From Conexibacter woesei Iso977N (GTDB lineage Bacteria > Actinomycetota > Thermoleophilia > Solirubrobacterales > Solirubrobacteraceae), in the NCBI RefSeq assembly GCF_000424625.1, contig NZ_AUKG01000002.1, positions 620,001-684,000 of the forward strand: 64,000 bases of DNA. Direction: 5' to 3'. Below are positions 37,542 through 45,320 of this stretch, in pieces. The first letter of the stretch is position 1. Each line of letters opens with the position of its first letter. The notes under the pieces were generated by a model. That model made no database searches, had not been told where the DNA came from, and saw only the letters and a list, made by a program, of their open reading frames with translations. The translations under genes were made by a program, and so were the position numbers.

Positions 37542-37587
37542 GCGGCGCCGCAAGTTCGGGCGCGCGGCGTCGTTGGAGGTCTCCGAG

Positions 37588-39633
37588 ATGCCTCGGACCT
37601 CCATCGCTCCCGTCCTCGCCGCCGGCGTCGCCGCGCTCGCGCTCGCCGCCGCCGCGCCCATGGCGGGTGCCGCGACGCCCGCGCGCGCCGGCCTCGCCGG
37701 CACGCTGCCGGCCTACCTGCACAGCGCGCGCGACCTCGGCGCCGCGCCCGCGACCGGCGGCGTGCGCGCGCTGATCGCGCTGCGCCACCGCGACCAGGCG
37801 GGGCTCGACGCCTTCGTGGGGGCGGTGTCGGACCCGCGCAGCGCGCAGTACGGCAGGTACCTGACGCCCGCGCAGTTCGAGGCGCGCTACGCGCCGAGCG
37901 ACGCCGACGTCGCGCAGGTCACGGCGTTCGCCAAGGCCTATGGGTTGAGCGTCCAGAGCGTTCCGCACAACCACGCCTACGTGTCGGTCAGCGGCACCGT
38001 CGCGCAGGCCGAGCGGGCGTTCTCGACGTCGATCTCGCGCTTCACGCTCAGGGGCGCGACGGTCCAGGCGCCGACGGTCGCGCTCAGCGTCCCGGCCGCG
38101 CTCAGGGGCCTGGTCACCGACGTCTCGGGCCTCGACACCGGCGACGTCGCCCAGCACCAGGCCTCCGCGCCGCCGGCCTACGTCAACGCGCCGCCGTGCA
38201 GCACGTCCTGGGGCGAGAGCACCCAGCAGGACCTGCCGACCGCGTTCGGCGCGCTGCAGCCCGACGTCCCGTGCGGCTACACGCCGCAGCAGGTCCAGGG
38301 CGCCTACGGCGTGACCGGCGCGATCGCCGGCGGCCTCGACGGCCGCGGCCAGCGCGTCGCGGTGATCGACGCCTACTCGTCGCCGTCGATCGTCGCCGAC
38401 GCCACCGAGTACTCCTCGCGCCACGGGCTCCCGGCGCCCACGATCGAGCTGCACGACAACGCGCTGCAGCGCAACGCGCCCGAGGGGCCGACGATCCCGG
38501 CCGACGTGCCGGTCGTCGGCGGGCTCAACCTCCAGGATCCGCAGGGCTGGGCGGGGGAGGAGACGCTCGACGTCGAGGCGATCCACTCGATCGCGCCCGG
38601 CGCGACGATCGTCTACCAGGGCGCCAACTCGGCGCTGAACATGGACCTGCAGACCGCGCAGAACAGCGTCGTCCAGGACGACCTCGCCCAGATCGTGTCG
38701 AACTCGTACGGCGGCAGCACCGACGACAGCGACGCCACCAGCGACGGCATCTGGCAGCAGGCCGCCGCGCAGGGCATCGGCGTGTACTTCTCCTCCGGCG
38801 ACGCCGGCGACGAGACGACCGGCGGGACCGATCCGGCGGCCCGCGCCACCGACTCCGGCGGCAACTCGCCGTACGTCACGTCGGTCGGCGGCACGACGCT
38901 GGCGGTCGGCAAGGACGACAACTACGAGTTCGAGACCTACTGGGGCACGTTCTCCTCCACCTTGACCGACGGCGCGTGGTCGCCCGCCGCGCCCGGCGTC
39001 TTCAACTCCGGCGGTGGCGGCGGCACGAGCCAGGCCTACGCGCAGCCGTCCTACCAGGCCGGCGTGGTCCCCGATGCGTTCTCGCACTACTGGGAGAGCA
39101 AGAGCAGCGACGACGGCAGGGTCTCCGGCGGCGCCGTGCCCGGCCGCGTGACGCCCGACGTCGCGATGCTCGCCGACCCGAACTCCGGGTTCCTGATCGG
39201 GCTCAGCCAGGACTTCGACCAGGCCGCCAACCCGCTCGGGCTGCCGCTGCCGACCGACGACACGCACTACTCCGAGTACCGGATCGGCGGCACGTCGCTG
39301 GCCTCGCCGCTGTTCGCGGGCATGATGGCGCTCGCCGACCAGGCCGCGGGCGCGCACCACGGCTTCGCCAACCCGGCGCTCTACGCGGCGGGCGGTGCCG
39401 GCGCGTTCAACGACATCTCGGCCCCGAGCAGCCCGGTCGCGGTCGTCCGGACCAACGACACCAACTCGATCGACGCCTCCGGCGGGACGCAGACGCTGCT
39501 GCGGACGGCGGGCCAGACCGGCACGCTGACCTCGCAGCCCGGCTACGACGACTCGACCGGCCTCGGCTCGCCCAAGGGCCTCGGCTTCCTGCGCGCGCTG
39601 GCGCCGGACTCGGCGCTGATCCCGGCGGGCTGA
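37588..39633 (+). CDS. secreted sedolisin (S53) serine-carboxyl protease
   Basis: The 681-residue preproprotein has a signal peptide (1-29), a pro-kumamolisin activation domain (about 38-185), and an S53 catalytic domain. Catalytic residues are Glu324 and Asp328 (GEETLDVEAIH), oxyanion Asp405 (FSSGDAGDE) and Ser570 (IGGTSLASP). The C-terminal calcium site is visible as AFNDIS and the later GYDDSTGLGSPKG. Sedolisins act at acidic pH outside the cell. The ATG at 37588 is preferred to a TTG 15 bases upstream. It precedes the VWA gene, separated by an inverted repeat. Confidence 0.94.
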   Translation: MPRTSIAPVLAAGVAALALAAAAPMAGAATPARAGLAGTLPAYLHSARDLGAAPATGGVRALIALRHRDQAGLDAFVGAVSDPRSAQYGRYLTPAQFEARYAPSDADVAQVTAFAKAYGLSVQSVPHNHAYVSVSGTVAQAERAFSTSISRFTLRGATVQAPTVALSVPAALRGLVTDVSGLDTGDVAQHQASAPPAYVNAPPCSTSWGESTQQDLPTAFGALQPDVPCGYTPQQVQGAYGVTGAIAGGLDGRGQRVAVIDAYSSPSIVADATEYSSRHGLPAPTIELHDNALQRNAPEGPTIPADVPVVGGLNLQDPQGWAGEETLDVEAIHSIAPGATIVYQGANSALNMDLQTAQNSVVQDDLAQIVSNSYGGSTDDSDATSDGIWQQAAAQGIGVYFSSGDAGDETTGGTDPAARATDSGGNSPYVTSVGGTTLAVGKDDNYEFETYWGTFSSTLTDGAWSPAAPGVFNSGGGGGTSQAYAQPSYQAGVVPDAFSHYWESKSSDDGRVSGGAVPGRVTPDVAMLADPNSGFLIGLSQDFDQAANPLGLPLPTDDTHYSEYRIGGTSLASPLFAGMMALADQAAGAHHGFANPALYAAGGAGAFNDISAPSSPVAVVRTNDTNSIDASGGTQTLLRTAGQTGTLTSQPGYDDSTGLGSPKGLGFLRALAPDSALIPAG

Positions 39634-39643
39634 GGCCGCGCAC

Positions 39644-39683
39644 GTCACCTCCCTGTCACTGCGCGCGGTGACGGTGAGGTGAC
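39644..39683 (+). promoter_or_regulatory. inverted repeat with GGTGAC direct repeats upstream of the VWA gene
   Basis: GGTGAC occurs at 39667 and 39678, an 11-base period. The left arm (GTCACCTC, then GTCAC) makes the whole block a hairpin of eight plus five pairs. As DNA it resembles a tandem OmpR-type site 26 bases before the VWA start. As RNA it could end the sedolisin message. The same GGTGAC-N5-GGTGAC recurs at 42417. Confidence 0.5.
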
Positions 39684-39708
39684 AGGCCGGTCCGCACTCT
39701 TGAGCGCC

Positions 39709-40635
39709 ATGACCTTCGCGTCCCCGCTCCTGCTCGCCGGCCTGGCGCTGGTGCCGGTGCTGCTCACGGCCTACGTCGTGCGCGAGCGCCGTGCACGCCG
39801 GGCCGCGCGCGCCGTCGTCGCCGCGCCGCTGCGCGCCGCCGTCCTCCCGCGCCGCGCCGGCTGGCGTCGCCACGTCCCGATCGCCGGCGGCCTCGGCGCC
39901 GCCGCGCTGCTGCTGACCGCGCTCGCGCGCCCGCAGACCACCGTCGCCGTCCCGGTCGAGCAGGCGCGGATCGTGATCGCCACCGACCGCTCCGGCTCGA
40001 TGGAGGCCAAGGACGTCGCCCCGGACCGCCTGACCGCCGCCCGCGCCGCGGCCGCGACGTTCCTGAGGTCGGTCCCGAGGACCGTGCGCGTCGGCGCGCT
40101 CACGTTCAACCAGGTGCCGACCGTGCTGGCCGCGCCGACGACCGACCACGACGCGGTCGGCGACGCCATCAACTCGATCCAGGCCGCGGGCACCACCGCG
40201 ACCGGCGACGCGATCGCCTCCGCGCTGAAGATGCTGAAGACCGGGAACGGCCCGGCGGCGATCGTCCTGCTGTCGGACGGCAAGAGCGTCCGCGGCCAGG
40301 ACGTCCTGACGGTCGCGCGCCAGGCCAAGGCGGCGAAGGTCCCGATCTACACCGTGTCGCTCGGCACGGCCTCAGGGACGATCACGACCAAGACCGGCAC
40401 GAGCCAGGTCCCGCCGGACACCGCGACGATGAGGCAGGTCGCCTCGATCACCGGCGGCAAGGCCTACAACATCTCCGACGCCAGGGCGCTGAGCGCGGTC
40501 TACGAGCAGCTCGGCTCCAAGCTCACGACCAAGCACCAGAGGCAGGACGTCTCCTCGTCGTTCGCGGGCGGCGCGCTGCTGATCCTGGTCCTCGGCGGCG
40601 TCGCGAGCGTGAGCCTGACGGGCCGGCTGGTCTGA
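39709..40635 (+). CDS. BatA-like von Willebrand factor A protein (first copy)
   Basis: The 308-residue protein has two N-terminal helices, an exposed VWA domain and one C-terminal helix, the Bat layout. The metal-ion-dependent adhesion site is complete: Asp93-Ser95-Ser97 in ATDRSGSM, a Thr in GTTATGDA, and Asp in VLLSDGKS. It aligns closely, even in numbering, with the second copy at 44370-45320. Such proteins are usually partners of MoxR ATPases and DUF58 proteins in envelope or stress functions. The ATG follows the GGTGAC repeat. Confidence 0.88.
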   Translation: MTFASPLLLAGLALVPVLLTAYVVRERRARRAARAVVAAPLRAAVLPRRAGWRRHVPIAGGLGAAALLLTALARPQTTVAVPVEQARIVIATDRSGSMEAKDVAPDRLTAARAAAATFLRSVPRTVRVGALTFNQVPTVLAAPTTDHDAVGDAINSIQAAGTTATGDAIASALKMLKTGNGPAAIVLLSDGKSVRGQDVLTVARQAKAAKVPIYTVSLGTASGTITTKTGTSQVPPDTATMRQVASITGGKAYNISDARALSAVYEQLGSKLTTKHQRQDVSSSFAGGALLILVLGGVASVSLTGRLV

Positions 40636-40640
40636 CACCC

Positions 40641-40679
40641 TCAGCTTGCGTTCAGGAACGGCGAAGGCTGCCTTCAGGA
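40641..40679 (+). promoter_or_regulatory. TCAG repeats with 11-bp phasing upstream of the response-regulator unit
   Basis: TCAG occurs at 40641, 40652 and 40674, offsets of 11 and 22 bases. The last two are GTTCAGG and CTTCAGG. Phased direct repeats of this kind are the usual target of OmpR/PhoB-type regulators, one of which is encoded 214 bases downstream. Confidence 0.5.
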
Positions 40680-40699
40680 CCATGCGGTTGGGTGGACGC

Positions 40700-40888
40700 A
40701 TGCGCTCCACCCGTATCGCCACCGTCGCCGTGACCGCCGGCGCCGCGCTGCTCGGCTGGTCGGCGGTCAGCGTGGCGGCGATCGGCGACCAGCTCCCGGC
40801 GTCGTCGTCGCCCGCCGGGCAACCGCAGCAACAACAGCTGGACCGCGGTCACTGCGACCACGACCACGACCGCCGGCCGGGGGTCTGA
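40700..40888 (+). CDS. small exported His-rich protein
   Basis: The 62-residue product has a signal-like N-terminus (MRSTRIATVAVTAGAALLGWSAVSVAAI). A Ser/Pro/Gln stretch and a C-terminus with GHCDHDHDRRPGV follow, where three His, one Cys and three Asp could bind metal. It ends four bases before the response-regulator GTG, so it is cotranscribed with the two-component system. The histidine kinase has almost no sensor loop, so this peptide may supply the signal or act as a brake. That is inference. ATG 40682 is an alternative start. Confidence 0.6.
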   Translation: MRSTRIATVAVTAGAALLGWSAVSVAAIGDQLPASSSPAGQPQQQQLDRGHCDHDHDRRPGV

Positions 40889-40892
40889 TCCC

Positions 40893-41546
40893 GTGCGCGT
40901 GCTGCTGGCCGAGGACCACCCGGGCGTCGCGAGGTCCGTCGCGACCGGCCTGCGCCGCCACGGCGCGGCGGTCGACGTCGCGCCCGACGGCGGCCGCGCG
41001 CTGTACCTCGCGCGCGTGCACGACTACGACGTCGTCGTGCTCGACCGCGACCTCCCCGAGATCCACGGCGACGAGGTCTGCCGCGCGCTCAACGCCGAGC
41101 AGCCCGAGACCAAGGTCCTCATGTTGACCGCGTCGCGCACGACCGACGACGTCGTCGAGGGCCTCGGCCTCGGCGCCGACGACTACATGTTGAAGCCGTT
41201 CCGCTTCGCCGAGCTGGTCGCGCGCGTCAACGCGCTCGCCCGCCGCGCCGGCGCCGCGCGCCCCGCGGTCCTGGAGCACGGCGACCTGCGCCTGGACCCG
41301 GCGAAGCGCACGGTCACCCGCGCGGGCGCCGAGCTGGACCTCGCGCGCAAGGAGTTCGGCGTCCTGCACGCGCTGATGGCCGCGGGCGGCGACGCCGTCA
41401 GCACCGAGCAGCTGCTCGCGTCGGTCTGGGACGCCAACGTCGACCCGTTCTCCAACATCGTCCGGATGACCGTGATGAAGCTGCGCCGCAAGCTCGGCGA
41501 GCCCGGCGTCATCGACACGGTCCCGGGTGTCGGGTACCGGATGTGA
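40893..41546 (+). CDS. OmpR/PhoB-family response regulator
   Basis: The 217-residue protein has a receiver domain with phosphoacceptor Asp51 (VVVLDRDLPEIHG), acidic Glu7-Asp8 (LLAEDHPG), switch Thr (LMLTASR) and Lys (YMLKPFRF). A C-terminal winged helix follows (FGVLHALMAAGGDAVSTEQLL and MTVMKLRRKLGEPGVIDTVPGVGYRM). It starts with GTG. The kinase gene overlaps its stop. Candidate targets are the phased repeats at 40641, 39667 and 42417. Confidence 0.94.
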   Translation: MRVLLAEDHPGVARSVATGLRRHGAAVDVAPDGGRALYLARVHDYDVVVLDRDLPEIHGDEVCRALNAEQPETKVLMLTASRTTDDVVEGLGLGADDYMLKPFRFAELVARVNALARRAGAARPAVLEHGDLRLDPAKRTVTRAGAELDLARKEFGVLHALMAAGGDAVSTEQLLASVWDANVDPFSNIVRMTVMKLRRKLGEPGVIDTVPGVGYRM

Positions 41547-42421
41547 CCACCGTCCGCCTGCGGCTGACGCTGTTCTACGCCGGGCTGCTGGCGACGGCGT
41601 CCGGCCTGATCCTGCTCGCCTCCTACCTGCTCGTCCGCGCGCACCTGCACCGGACGCTCGCGGCCGTCGACGCCGATCGGGCGGTCTCAGCGCTCGGATC
41701 CCAGTACCTGTTGTCCCTGCTCGCCGTCGTCCTCCTGGCGGCCGGCGGCGGCTGGCTGGTCTCCGGCGAGGTGCTGGGCCCGCTGGAGCGCGCGATCGCC
41801 AAGCAGCGGCGGTTCGTCGCCAACGCCTCGCACGAGCTGCGCACGCCGATGACGGCGATCCGGACCGCGGCCGAGGTCGCGCTCGACGACCCCGAGCCGA
41901 CCGTCGAGTCGCTGCGCGAGGTGCTCGCTGAGACCGTCGCGGCGACCGAGGACACCGACCGCCTGATGAGCGCGCTGCTCACGCTCGCGGGCGCGACCGA
42001 CGGGCCGCGCGCCGACCAGGACGTCGAGCTGCACGCGGTCGTCGCGCGGGCGCTCCCGCGCGGCGCGCGGATCGACGCCGACCTGCGGCCGACCGTCGTG
42101 CGCGGCGACCCCGCGCTGCTGCAGCGCGCCGCGGCCAACCTGATCGACAACGCGCTGCGCCACGGGCGCCCGGGCGCGCCGGTCCGCGTCGCGGTGCGCG
42201 ACGGCGCGCTGACCGTCGCCAACGCGGGCGCGCCGATCGCGCCCGACGACCTCGCCCGGATGGCCGAGCCGTTCGAGCGCCTGCGCCGCGGCACGAGCCC
42301 CGGCACCGGGCTGGGGCTGTCGATCGTCCGGACGATCGCCGAGGCCCACGGCGGCCGCCTGCGCCTGGAGTCGCCGCCGGCCGGCGGGCTCGTCGCGCGC
42401 CTCGAAGTCGCCGCGAGGTGA
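41543..42421 (+). CDS. sensor histidine kinase with minimal sensor region
   Basis: The 292-residue kinase has two membrane helices (about 11-30 and 57-77) flanking an external loop of only about 25 residues. No clear HAMP domain precedes the HisKA domain. The phosphoacceptor is in FVANASHELRTPMTAIRTAAE. The ATPase domain has NLIDNALRHG (N box), a G1 region degenerated to ANAGAPIAPDDL, and GTGLGLSIVRTIAEAHGG. The GTG overlaps the regulator stop. The absence of a real sensor domain suggests it senses membrane state or a partner protein. Confidence 0.92.
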   Translation: MTTVRLRLTLFYAGLLATASGLILLASYLLVRAHLHRTLAAVDADRAVSALGSQYLLSLLAVVLLAAGGGWLVSGEVLGPLERAIAKQRRFVANASHELRTPMTAIRTAAEVALDDPEPTVESLREVLAETVAATEDTDRLMSALLTLAGATDGPRADQDVELHAVVARALPRGARIDADLRPTVVRGDPALLQRAAANLIDNALRHGRPGAPVRVAVRDGALTVANAGAPIAPDDLARMAEPFERLRRGTSPGTGLGLSIVRTIAEAHGGRLRLESPPAGGLVARLEVAAR

Positions 42422-42433
42422 CGGGCAGGTGAC
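42417..42433 (+). promoter_or_regulatory. GGTGAC-N5-GGTGAC repeat upstream of moxR
   Basis: GGTGAC occurs at 42417 and 42428, the same 11-base period as upstream of the first VWA gene. The first copy overlaps the kinase stop codon, so part of the match could be coding constraint. Confidence 0.5.
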
Positions 42434-42457
42434 GGGCCGCCGGTCAACGTGGTGGTC

Positions 42458-43489
42458 ATGATCGACGACACCCAGCTGTTCCCGGCGCCCGGCGCCGACC
42501 CCGATCCGGACGCCGAGGCGCGGCACGCGCTGTCCGCGGTCCTGCACCAGGCCAAGCGCGTCGTCGTCGGCCAGGACGCGATGCTCGAGCGCGTGCTCGT
42601 CGCGCTGCTGGCCGGCGGCCACGTCCTGCTCGAGGGCGTGCCCGGCCTGGCTAAGACGCTGACGGTCCGGACGCTCGCCCAGGCGCTCGGCGGCTCGTTC
42701 TCGCGCGTGCAGTTCACCCCGGACCTGGTCCCGGCCGACGTGATCGGCACGCGGATCTGGCAGCCCGACCGCGGCGCGTTCCGGACCGAGCTGGGCCCGG
42801 TCTTCGCCAACCTGTTGCTCGCCGACGAGATCAACCGCGCGCCCGCGAAGGTGCAGTCGGCGTTGTTGGAGGTCATGCAGGAGCACCAGGTCACGATCGG
42901 TGGGGAGGCCTTCGCGGTCCCGCAGCCGTTCCTGGTCCTGGCCACCCAGAACCCGATCGAGTCCGAGGGCACCTACCAGCTGCCCGAGGCCCAGGTCGAC
43001 CGCTTCCTGTTCAAGTTGGTGGTGGACTACCCGGCGCTCGACGACGAGATCGAGGTCGCGCGCGGCGTGACGTCGCCGTCGGAGGTCGCGCGGGTGCTGA
43101 CGATGGAGCAGCTCGCCGCCTACCGCGAGCGCGCCCGCGAGGTCGTCGTCTCGCGCGAGGTCGCGCGCTACGCGGTGTCGCTGGTCGACGCCACGCGCCA
43201 CCCCGAGCGCTACGGCCTTGATGATGTGGTTGGGTTGATCGCCTTCGGCGGCTCGCCGCGCGCGTCGATCGGCCTCGTGCAGTCCGCGCAGGCGCTGGCG
43301 CTGCTGCGCGACCGCACCTACGCGACGTTCGAGGACGTCGCCGACCTCGCGCGCGACGTGCTGCGCCACCGGCTCGTGCTGTCCTACGACGCGCTCGCCG
43401 ACGGCGTCACGCCCGACGCGCTGCTCGAGCGCGTGCTCGACGCGGTCGCCGTGCCGCACGCCGCCGGGCACCTGGTCGAGGTGGCCTGA
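42458..43489 (+). CDS. MoxR-family AAA+ ATPase
   Basis: The 343-residue protein has Walker A LEGVPGLAKT, Walker B LLLADEINRAPAKVQSALLEVM, sensor 1 FLVLATQNPIESEGTYQLPEAQ and arginine finger region DRFLFK. A lid domain follows (YGLDDVVGLIAFGGSPRASI). MoxR ATPases act as chaperones that remodel or load metal into VWA partners. The ATG at 42458 is chosen; a GTG at 42449 is possible. Its stop overlaps the DUF58 start (TGATG). Confidence 0.94.
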   Translation: MIDDTQLFPAPGADPDPDAEARHALSAVLHQAKRVVVGQDAMLERVLVALLAGGHVLLEGVPGLAKTLTVRTLAQALGGSFSRVQFTPDLVPADVIGTRIWQPDRGAFRTELGPVFANLLLADEINRAPAKVQSALLEVMQEHQVTIGGEAFAVPQPFLVLATQNPIESEGTYQLPEAQVDRFLFKLVVDYPALDDEIEVARGVTSPSEVARVLTMEQLAAYRERAREVVVSREVARYAVSLVDATRHPERYGLDDVVGLIAFGGSPRASIGLVQSAQALALLRDRTYATFEDVADLARDVLRHRLVLSYDALADGVTPDALLERVLDAVAVPHAAGHLVEVA

Positions 43490-44373
43490 TGCTCTCGCCC
43501 TCGCCGGCCCGCCAGGGCCCGGGGCCGATCCCGCCGGACACGCTGCGCCGCCTCGGGCTGACGCTGCGTAGGCGCGTCGCCGGGCGGCTGCCGGGCGGGC
43601 ATCCGACCCGCGGCACGGCCGCCGACGGCACCGAGCTCTCGCAGCTGCAGCCCTACGTGCCGGGCGACGACGTCCGGCGCATCGACCCGAGCGCCAGCGC
43701 CCGGACCGGCGAGCCGCACGTGCGGCGGCTGGTCCCGGAGCGCGCGGTGACGACGTGGGTGGTCGCCGACGTCTCGCCGTCGATGGCGTTCGGGACGGTC
43801 GGGCGGTTGAAGAGCGACGTCGCCGAGGGCGTTGTCGATGTGGTCGCTCGACTCGCGGTGCAGCACGGCGGCAACGTCGGGCTGGCGCTCGGCGGCGCGC
43901 GGCTGCTGCCGCCCGCGTCGGGGCGCGTCGCGCTGGCGGCGGTCCGCGGCGCGATCGGCGCGGGCGTGGTCGCCGACGGCAACGACGGCGGCGGGCTGGG
44001 CGTCGCGCTGGAGCGCGTCGCGCGGCTGGCCCGGATGGCCGGGTCGGTGGTCGTCGTCAGCGACTTCCGCGATGACGATTGGGCCGGCCCGTTCCGGCAG
44101 ATCGCGGCGCGGCACTCGGTCGTGGCCGTCGAGGTCCATGACCCGCTGGAGGCCGAGCTGCCGGACGCCGGGTTGTTGGTGTTCTCGGATCCGGAGACGG
44201 GCGAAGTTGTAGAGCTTGATACGAGCGATCCCGGTGTCCGGGCGGCGCTGGCGCAGGCCGAGGCCGAGCGCCGCGCGGGCGTGGCGGCGGTGCTGCGGCG
44301 CGCGGGCGCCCAACATGTCGCGCTGGGCACCGGCGACGACTGGCTGCGCGAGCTGGGGCGGGTGCTGCGGTGA
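43489..44373 (+). CDS. DUF58-family protein
   Basis: The 294-residue protein has the DUF58 signature LQPYVPGDDVRRIDPSASARTGEPHVR followed by a VWA-like fold starting VTTWVVADVSPSMAFG. Its MIDAS-like DxSxS reads D-V-S-P-S. It is soluble, without membrane helices. In MoxR operons DUF58 proteins bridge the ATPase and the membrane VWA subunits. It overlaps moxR by one base and the second VWA gene by four (GTGA). Confidence 0.9.
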   Translation: MLSPSPARQGPGPIPPDTLRRLGLTLRRRVAGRLPGGHPTRGTAADGTELSQLQPYVPGDDVRRIDPSASARTGEPHVRRLVPERAVTTWVVADVSPSMAFGTVGRLKSDVAEGVVDVVARLAVQHGGNVGLALGGARLLPPASGRVALAAVRGAIGAGVVADGNDGGGLGVALERVARLARMAGSVVVVSDFRDDDWAGPFRQIAARHSVVAVEVHDPLEAELPDAGLLVFSDPETGEVVELDTSDPGVRAALAQAEAERRAGVAAVLRRAGAQHVALGTGDDWLRELGRVLR

Positions 44374-45320
44374 GCTTCGCGGAACCCACGCACCTGCTGG
44401 CGCTGCTGGCGCTGCCGCTGTTGTTGGTGGTGTCGGTCGCCGCCCGTGCGCGGCGGCGGCGCTTCGCGGTCCGCCATCCGGCGGCCGCGGCGATGCGGGC
44501 GCTCGCGCCGCGCAGCGCCCGCTGGCGCCGCGTCGTCCCGGCGACGCTGTTGGGCGCCAGCACGATCGCGCTCGCGGCCGGGTTCGCCAAGCCGCAGCGC
44601 ACGGTGCACGTGCCGGTCGAGAAGGCGTCGGTCGTGCTCGTCACCGACGAGTCCGGGTCGATGCAGGCCGACGACGTCTCACCGACGCGGCTGCAGGCGG
44701 CGCAGGGCGCGGCGAGGTCGTTCCTGAGCGATGCGCCCAAGTCGCTGCTGATCGGCTTCGCCGGGTTCTCGTCGAGCGTCGAGACCAACGTCGCGCCGAC
44801 GACCGACCGCGCCGCGGTGACGAGCGCGATCGGCGCGCTCAGCGCCGAGGGCGGGACCGCGACCGGCGACGCGCTCAGCGCCGCGCTGGACCAGCTCGCC
44901 GCGCGCAAGGGCACCGACGGCAGGACCGCACCCGCGGCGATCGTGCTGCTCAGCGACGGCGCGCGCACCGCGGGCTCCGACCCGCTGGAGGCCGCGGCGC
45001 GCGCGAAGAGGCTCGGGATCCCGATCTACACGGTGGCGCTCGGCACGCAGTCCGGGACGCTGTCGTTGCCCGACGGCCAGACGCTCGACGTGCCGCCGGA
45101 CCCGCAGACGCTCGCGCAGATCGCCTCGACGTCGGGCGGGAGGACGTACGCGGTCGACGACGCCGACACGCTGTCGGGGATCTACCGGTCGCTCGGGTCC
45201 AAGCTCGGCACGAAGGCCGAGCAGCGCGAGGTCACGATCGCGTTCGTCGGCGGCGGGTTGTTGTTGCTGTTGGGCGGGCTCGGGACGAGCGTCGGGACGC
45301 GCGGGCGGTTGGCGCTGTGA
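44370..45320 (+). CDS. BatA-like von Willebrand factor A protein (second copy)
   Basis: The 316-residue membrane VWA protein has N-terminal helices (LLALLALPLLLVVSVAA and ATLLGASTIALAAGF), a complete MIDAS (Asp93-Glu-Ser95-Gly-Ser97, a Thr in GTATGDA, and Asp in VLLSDGAR) and a C-terminal helix. It is a paralog of the protein at 39709-40635. It starts with GTG overlapping the DUF58 stop and ends in GTGA with the next gene, so moxR, DUF58, VWA and the tail gene form one unit. Confidence 0.9.
   Translation: MSFAEPTHLLALLALPLLLVVSVAARARRRRFAVRHPAAAAMRALAPRSARWRRVVPATLLGASTIALAAGFAKPQRTVHVPVEKASVVLVTDESGSMQADDVSPTRLQAAQGAARSFLSDAPKSLLIGFAGFSSSVETNVAPTTDRAAVTSAIGALSAEGGTATGDALSAALDQLAARKGTDGRTAPAAIVLLSDGARTAGSDPLEAAARAKRLGIPIYTVALGTQSGTLSLPDGQTLDVPPDPQTLAQIASTSGGRTYAVDDADTLSGIYRSLGSKLGTKAEQREVTIAFVGGGLLLLLGGLGTSVGTRGRLAL

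Follow-up and report, generated by a model that had tools for sequence, protein, structure and literature searches.

We report that short direct repeats in an 11-base-pair (bp) register precede three transcription units of a module built around a MoxR AAA+ ATPase in Conexibacter woesei Iso977N, and that they are in all likelihood tandem binding sites of a regulator of the OmpR/PhoB family, most likely the one that the module itself encodes. The module lies in a stretch of 64,000 nucleotides (contig NZ_AUKG01000002.1, positions 620,001 to 684,000; hereafter "the window") and combines adjacent moxR, DUF58 and VWA genes, the arrangement of a Bat-like module, with a second VWA gene (VWA1) and the genes of a two-component system. 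Direct repeats of about 11 bp before several units are the hallmark of tandem OmpR/PhoB sites, and the conclusion is carried by the strict register of these boxes, their fixed distance to the -10 element, their rarity in the genome and their co-occurrence with the regulator gene. The first-pass annotation of this DNA had proposed a regulon that links sensing, MoxR and both VWA proteins. Our results support it, with one phased box each before VWA1 (or an htrA-VWA unit in relatives), before the regulator operon and before the moxR-DUF58-VWA unit. What appears to be new is a local, nearly dedicated regulon with a box of its own, and we found no report of this box in the literature on MoxR/VWA/DUF58 modules and on OmpR-type or HtrA regulation.

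The same annotation had pointed out GGTGAC-N5-GGTGAC before VWA1 (39667/39678) and before moxR (42417/42428), and both pairs are indeed found there. Two exact copies in the window compare with 0.02 expected, and none of 100 shuffled sequences reached two. It would have spoken against a specific function if such pairs were common genome-wide, but the whole 5.70 Mb genome (nine contigs) contains only three exact pairs, and the related pattern GTKAC-N6-GTGACR occurs at 4 places genome-wide, 3 of them within this module. With two mismatches allowed, GGTGAC pairs in the window are not above chance (5 versus 10.9). Before the regulator unit, TCAG is found at 40641, 40652 and 40674 as first described, and a degenerate GAAG at 40663 occupies the vacant 11-bp register of this array. 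As a rare word in its own right, TCAG-N7-TCAG had to be discarded, however, with one pair seen for 0.97 expected.

Conservation of these repeats was followed across related loci, for which the regulator was sought in 61 genomes and MoxR in 121. From 68 fetched stretches, 62 loci with a MoxR orthologue (the window included) were analysed, while L050, L052 and L054-L058 were omitted as they lack MoxR. We refer to loci as regulator-bearing if an orthologue of the regulator with 60% identity or more is encoded nearby; these 23 loci come from 11 genera, with L108 and L109 being near copies and L101 being close to L047. The box TTAY-N7-TGAC was read off 13 relatives and then loosened to T[TG]A[CT]-N7-TGA[CT] in order to accommodate the TGAC of the window and one TGAT. 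It is present before moxR in all 23 regulator-bearing loci, beginning with TTA[CT] in 22 of them and with TGAC in the window, and among the eleven spacings tried those of 3-6 and 8-13 gave no match before moxR at all. New loci that had not been used for pattern discovery have the box before moxR in 9 of 9 cases. The regulator-bearing loci contain 38 copies of TTAY-N7-TGAC in their 356 kb, compared to 0-2 for each other spacing, while TGAC-TGAC pairs in these loci have no preference for N7 (7 at N7, 32 at N5 and 16 at N8). Scanning orthologous loci for phased repeats, as the first-pass annotation had proposed, thus bore out the expectation that such repeats are conserved. What the relatives share is the register together with half-sites of the TTAY/TGAC type, whereas conservation of the literal GGTGAC is ruled out.

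The usual gene before VWA1 in these relatives is an htrA-like gene (51 of 62 loci), and its product in L039 has trypsin and PDZ domains. Fourteen htrA promoters from regulator-bearing loci could be assessed, of which 13 carry the box, and the fourteenth (L041) has the one-letter variant TTAG-N7-TGAC-N11-CACCCT. This count leaves out L108 and L109, where htrA lies at the edge of the stretch, and L051, where it lies on the opposite strand; the genomes of the former two have full-pattern sites around 7 kb upstream of moxR, and the opposite-strand htrA of L051 has its own facing site. In two loci that yielded no htrA, the window and L040, it is VWA1 that bears the box. Among regulator-free modules, the box is found at 6 of 34 htrA genes, once inside a gene, or at 6 of 32 assessable ones if L095 and L113 are set aside because they offer no usable upstream stretch (13/14 versus 6/34: Fisher test, 2e-6, for loci that are partly related).

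All 38 sites from moxR (23), htrA (13) and VWA1 (2) were collected without using the -10 element as a selection criterion, and yet they all have A at position 27 and T at position 31 from the start of the box, while position 26 is T or C in 34 of them. The combined promoter pattern reads TTAY-N7-TGAC-N11-yAnnnT, with the -10 assigned by consensus alone. The site thus overlaps the -35 region at a fixed distance from a consensus -10 in 38 of 38 cases, and such a fixed distance is typical of PhoB-type promoters. An ATG follows 6-9 nucleotides past the -10 at 22 of the 38 sites (15 have none within the 13 nucleotides inspected, and one has it at 2 nucleotides), so that leaderless messages are predicted, including those of VWA1 and moxR in the window. 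The constant -10 distance of both GGTGAC boxes had been overlooked by the first-pass annotation.

Genome-wide, the whole promoter pattern was found at 74 sites in the 23 regulator-bearing genomes, compared to 8 for a reversed control and 21 if the spacing was extended by one. By our own assignment, about 40 of these 74 are module sites (at least one per genome), though for three of them this relies only on their position or on the protein start. A generic promoter element is ruled out because 22 of the 23 genomes hold only 1-5 sites. Another 23 genomes that had been chosen as regulator-poor gave 21 full-pattern sites (reversed control 9), and one of them, G070, carries the regulator after all (62%), with a site 1.25 kb behind it. 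We give little weight to an earlier count in 12 genomes (62 sites versus 24 in the control) that included words such as CTTATACACATCTGACG and CTTACCTGGGCTTGACA. In G016, the former (contigs C378, C397 and C428, with a similar word in C410) are presumably sequencing-adapter remains, and we take the recurring CTTACCTGGGCTTGACA to be ribosomal RNA.

At the promoter of the regulator itself, T[TCG]A[CG] stands twice at period 11 in 17 of the 23 regulator-bearing loci, while other periods from 6 to 21 gave at most 6; the remaining six promoters lack this repeat. A -10-like word follows 10 nucleotides after the repeat in 10 of the 17. The letters differ from those of the target boxes, TTAY...TGAC with a -10 after 11 nucleotides, but the regulator box looks like a version of the same design. 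That the two motif types differ had been left unexplained before, and a common 11-bp design of T-N-A-(C/G/T) half-sites, of which they are different versions, now explains it in part.

Several observations weigh against an assignment of the boxes to the module's own regulator. The most striking contrast in our data, with the box before moxR in 23 of 23 regulator-bearing loci but in 1 of 39 loci without the regulator nearby (Fisher test, 4e-16), mostly reflects operon layout and deserves little weight: The gene immediately before moxR is a VWA or htrA gene in 35 of these 39 loci, where a promoter of moxR is hence not to be expected. This lowered our confidence in the assignment by a small step. 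Loci within one genus are also not independent, and the Fisher values should be read accordingly. In the own genome of the window, the TTAY form occurs at 12 places (control 4), none of which lies in this module, and the regulator promoters bear a different repeat version from the target boxes. Regulator-free loci overall have 8 boxes at the N7 spacing versus 0-4 at other spacings. TTAC-N7-TGAC is found at htrA without the regulator nearby in L089, L094 and L096 (one genus), in L114 and L115 (another genus) and, in intragenic position, in L126, while L133 has a box facing away at -72. An htrA site is also present in G085, a genome of 82% completeness with a best regulator match of 46%, and regulator orthologues of 59-64% encoded away from the module (L050, L052 and L054) lie in loci that lack a full-pattern site.

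In L091, the sole box-bearer among the 39 loci, and in L097, the contig breaks off and leaves just 195 and 123 bases of sequence ahead of moxR, and the regulator is found on another contig in either genome (68% and 66%); in G067, a full-pattern site is located at the end of that other, regulator-bearing contig. Of the regulator-free loci, only L124 and L133 offer a fair test, and both are without a moxR box. Seven genomes have a second MoxR module without a close regulator (L093, L124, L130-L133 and L136), and neither moxR nor htrA of these modules has a box that points in gene direction.

The boxes at VWA and moxR might instead be bound by another regulator of the OmpR family that is encoded elsewhere, with the local regulator controlling only its own operon through the TCAG array. 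This would fit the two differing motif versions and the TTAC-N7-TGAC boxes at htrA in some genomes without the regulator nearby. It would also fit the htrA promoters of regulator-free modules (L089-L136), where TTA-N8-TTA with period 11 is found in 10 of 34 (0-1 for periods of 6-10 and 12-17), which suggests that some other OmpR-type protein may serve those modules. We nevertheless regard this alternative as a minority possibility for the boxes described here because the presence of the TGAC-type box follows that of the local regulator at htrA promoters, from genome to genome and between two modules within a genome.

Much less probable is a dedicated sigma-factor promoter in which TTAY...TGAC would be recognised together with the -10 and no activator site would exist. 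The constant -10 distance in 38 of 38 sites is what such a promoter would produce, but the half-sites lie exactly one helical turn apart, which is the usual form of PhoB-type sites (PMC4415409). The low number of sites in 22 of 23 genomes also argues against it, and none of nine scanned module proteins matches a sigma factor family, with a regulator encoded there instead. The least credible reading takes GAGGTGAC for a ribosome-binding sequence and the repeat at 39644-39683 for the terminator hairpin of the upstream protease gene. GAGGTGA does resemble the Shine-Dalgarno core, and the inverted pair (39636-39692; -36.1 kcal/mol, z -5) would make a strong hairpin if transcribed. However, the predicted -10 comes after the box, which would hence be absent from the messenger RNA, and we rejected the Shine-Dalgarno reading on this ground. 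The spacing of the box is constant to the -10 and not to the start codon, the first half-site is TTAY in relatives, and no T run follows the hairpin.

If the module's own regulator is the one that binds, as we prefer to think, the kinase would sense a signal and phosphorylate the regulator, and the PhoB-type architecture together with a regulator of that family suggests how the promoters could then be activated. Two half-sites in 11-bp register, TTAY or TGAC followed by TGAC, would occupy the -35 region and end 11 nucleotides before the -10, so that a regulator dimer bound head to tail would stand in for a -35 element by recruiting RNA polymerase. Three units would thereby be switched on, namely VWA1 (together with htrA in many relatives), the operon of the regulator itself via the variant array, and moxR-DUF58-VWA2. 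The presence of an OmpR/PhoB-type regulator inside the module is borne out by domain matches to Response_reg (E 1.6e-26) and Trans_reg_C (E 3.5e-19), and its recognition region is nearly constant across the 23 loci as judged by eye. We infer binding by this regulator, activation rather than repression, and autoregulation, and the signal is probably envelope or secretion stress.

Comparison to known systems places these boxes near the PHO box of PhoB/PhoP from E. coli and Streptomyces, which consists of two 11-nucleotide direct repeat units (PMC4415409) and overlaps the -35 at the phoA promoter (PMC3348028). An OmpR-family regulator binds the PHO box head to tail, which is the mode that we propose here. 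Unlike in the Pho regulon, the half-sites read TTAY/TGAC where the PHO box has CTGTCAT or GTTCACC, MoxR-VWA-HtrA genes take the place of phosphate genes as targets, and the regulator reaches 137 bits with a PhoB model whose cut-off is 296. The one precedent that we found for a MoxR/Bat operon under two-component control comes from Riemerella anatipestifer, where PhoP binds to the promoter of moxR and exerts direct control over the Bat operon (PMC9603813, PMC11834572). PhoP is a global regulator there, with 583 peaks and a TTTAACA motif, whereas the two-component genes predicted here from sequence to have such a role are part of the module and the sites are few. VanR-type regulators of actinomycetes are a further known group close to ours, with 7lz9 as the closest solved relative (E 6e-63) and VanR-O as the closest NCBIfam model, though at 206.7 bits against a cut-off of 505. 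Matches of 54-59% are found in Paractinoplanes, Kutzneria, Lentzea and Streptomyces. In those named loci that were mapped (7 of 80, L244-L250), the only genes shared with the window were regulator and kinase, with an additional MFS match in L248.

Control of an HtrA protease (htrA/degP) by an OmpR-type pair in envelope or secretion stress is a feature of CssRS, MprAB and CpxAR, and we know of no MoxR-VWA genes in these systems. A tentative reading, which we put forward as one possibility among others, is that the module could be a self-contained system for envelope protein quality in which HtrA, the MoxR ATPase and VWA partners are governed by their own two-component system, with a small single-cysteine membrane peptide taking part in sensing and a regulon that is widened in G034 to a SurA-like foldase, a CtpB-like PDZ protease and a rhomboid protein. 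If true, this would give MoxR-VWA systems, whose signals and clients are to our knowledge mostly obscure, a defined stress input. A base-exact conserved box linking htrA, VWA and moxR to a two-component system makes the regulon predictable from sequence and offers a route to the stress that the module answers.

The genome G034 has 12 full-pattern sites, while four other genomes of its genus have 0-1 each (two of them are less than 90% complete). Nine sites outside the module (L201-L209), mostly TGAC-N7-TGAC, were followed; the first reading frame begins 9-10 nucleotides past the -10 in 5 of these 9 and within 14 nucleotides in 8. Eight downstream proteins were scanned, five of them as the first 200 residues. 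They include a SurA-like foldase, a rhomboid protein, DXP reductoisomerase and a PDZ protein that begins like CtpB. Three others matched no family, and the last had just a PAS match under the cut-off.

Features of the module and of its putative promoters in the window
Feature	Position	Strand	Remark
S53-type protease gene	37573-39633	+	propeptide domain found; before VWA1, where many relatives have htrA
Back-to-back box copy, AGTGAC-N5-GGTGAC	39644-39660	-	inverted repeat with VWA1 box
Phased box of VWA1, TGAC-N7-TGAC	39669-39683	+	from sequence
Predicted -10 of VWA1, CACTCT	39695-39700	+	consensus, 11 nucleotides past box; whole-pattern match
VWA1, BatA-like VWA protein	39709-40635	+	ATG 8 nucleotides past -10, predicted leaderless
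Array of regulator unit (TCAG, GAAG)	40641-40677	+	11-bp register
Weak -10 candidate, TTGGGT	40688-40693	+	10 nucleotides past last TCAG; like words 10 nucleotides after box in L045, L092, L098
Small peptide, 62 amino acids	40700-40888	+	hydrophobic stretch and one cysteine; first gene of regulator operon
OmpR/PhoB-type response regulator	40893-41546	+	candidate binder; domain matches
Sensor histidine kinase	41543-42421	+	HAMP domain not detected
Phased box of moxR, TGAC-N7-TGAC	42419-42433	+	from sequence
Predicted -10 of moxR, CAACGT	42445-42450	+	consensus, 11 nucleotides past box; whole-pattern match
MoxR AAA+ ATPase	42458-43489	+	ATG 7 nucleotides past -10, predicted leaderless
DUF58 protein	43489-44373	+	overlaps moxR stop
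VWA2, VWA protein	44370-45320	+	BatA model just under cut-off; overlaps DUF58 stop

All genes from the protease to VWA2 are encoded on the plus strand. The minus-strand copy of the box ahead of VWA1 had escaped the first-pass annotation; it has no -10 match at the expected distance and is absent from the full-pattern sites, and the inverted pair that it forms may additionally serve as a terminator. Two back-to-back boxes are likewise present before VWA1 in L040, and the backward box there also has a -10 match.

No HAMP domain was detected in the sensor kinase of the window or in that of L047, while 4 of 5 relatives tested have one. A small peptide gene precedes the regulator in 10 of 10 loci with this orientation of the regulator (the window, L039, L040, L042, L045, L049, L051, L092, L098 and L106) and encodes 62-94 amino acids with a hydrophobic stretch and one cysteine, in a scan that required the hydrophobic stretch and displayed only cysteine-containing frames. 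The peptide of the window matches no Pfam family. A C-P motif is shared by 7 of the 10 peptides, and a comparable short gene was seen by eye before moxR in L108.

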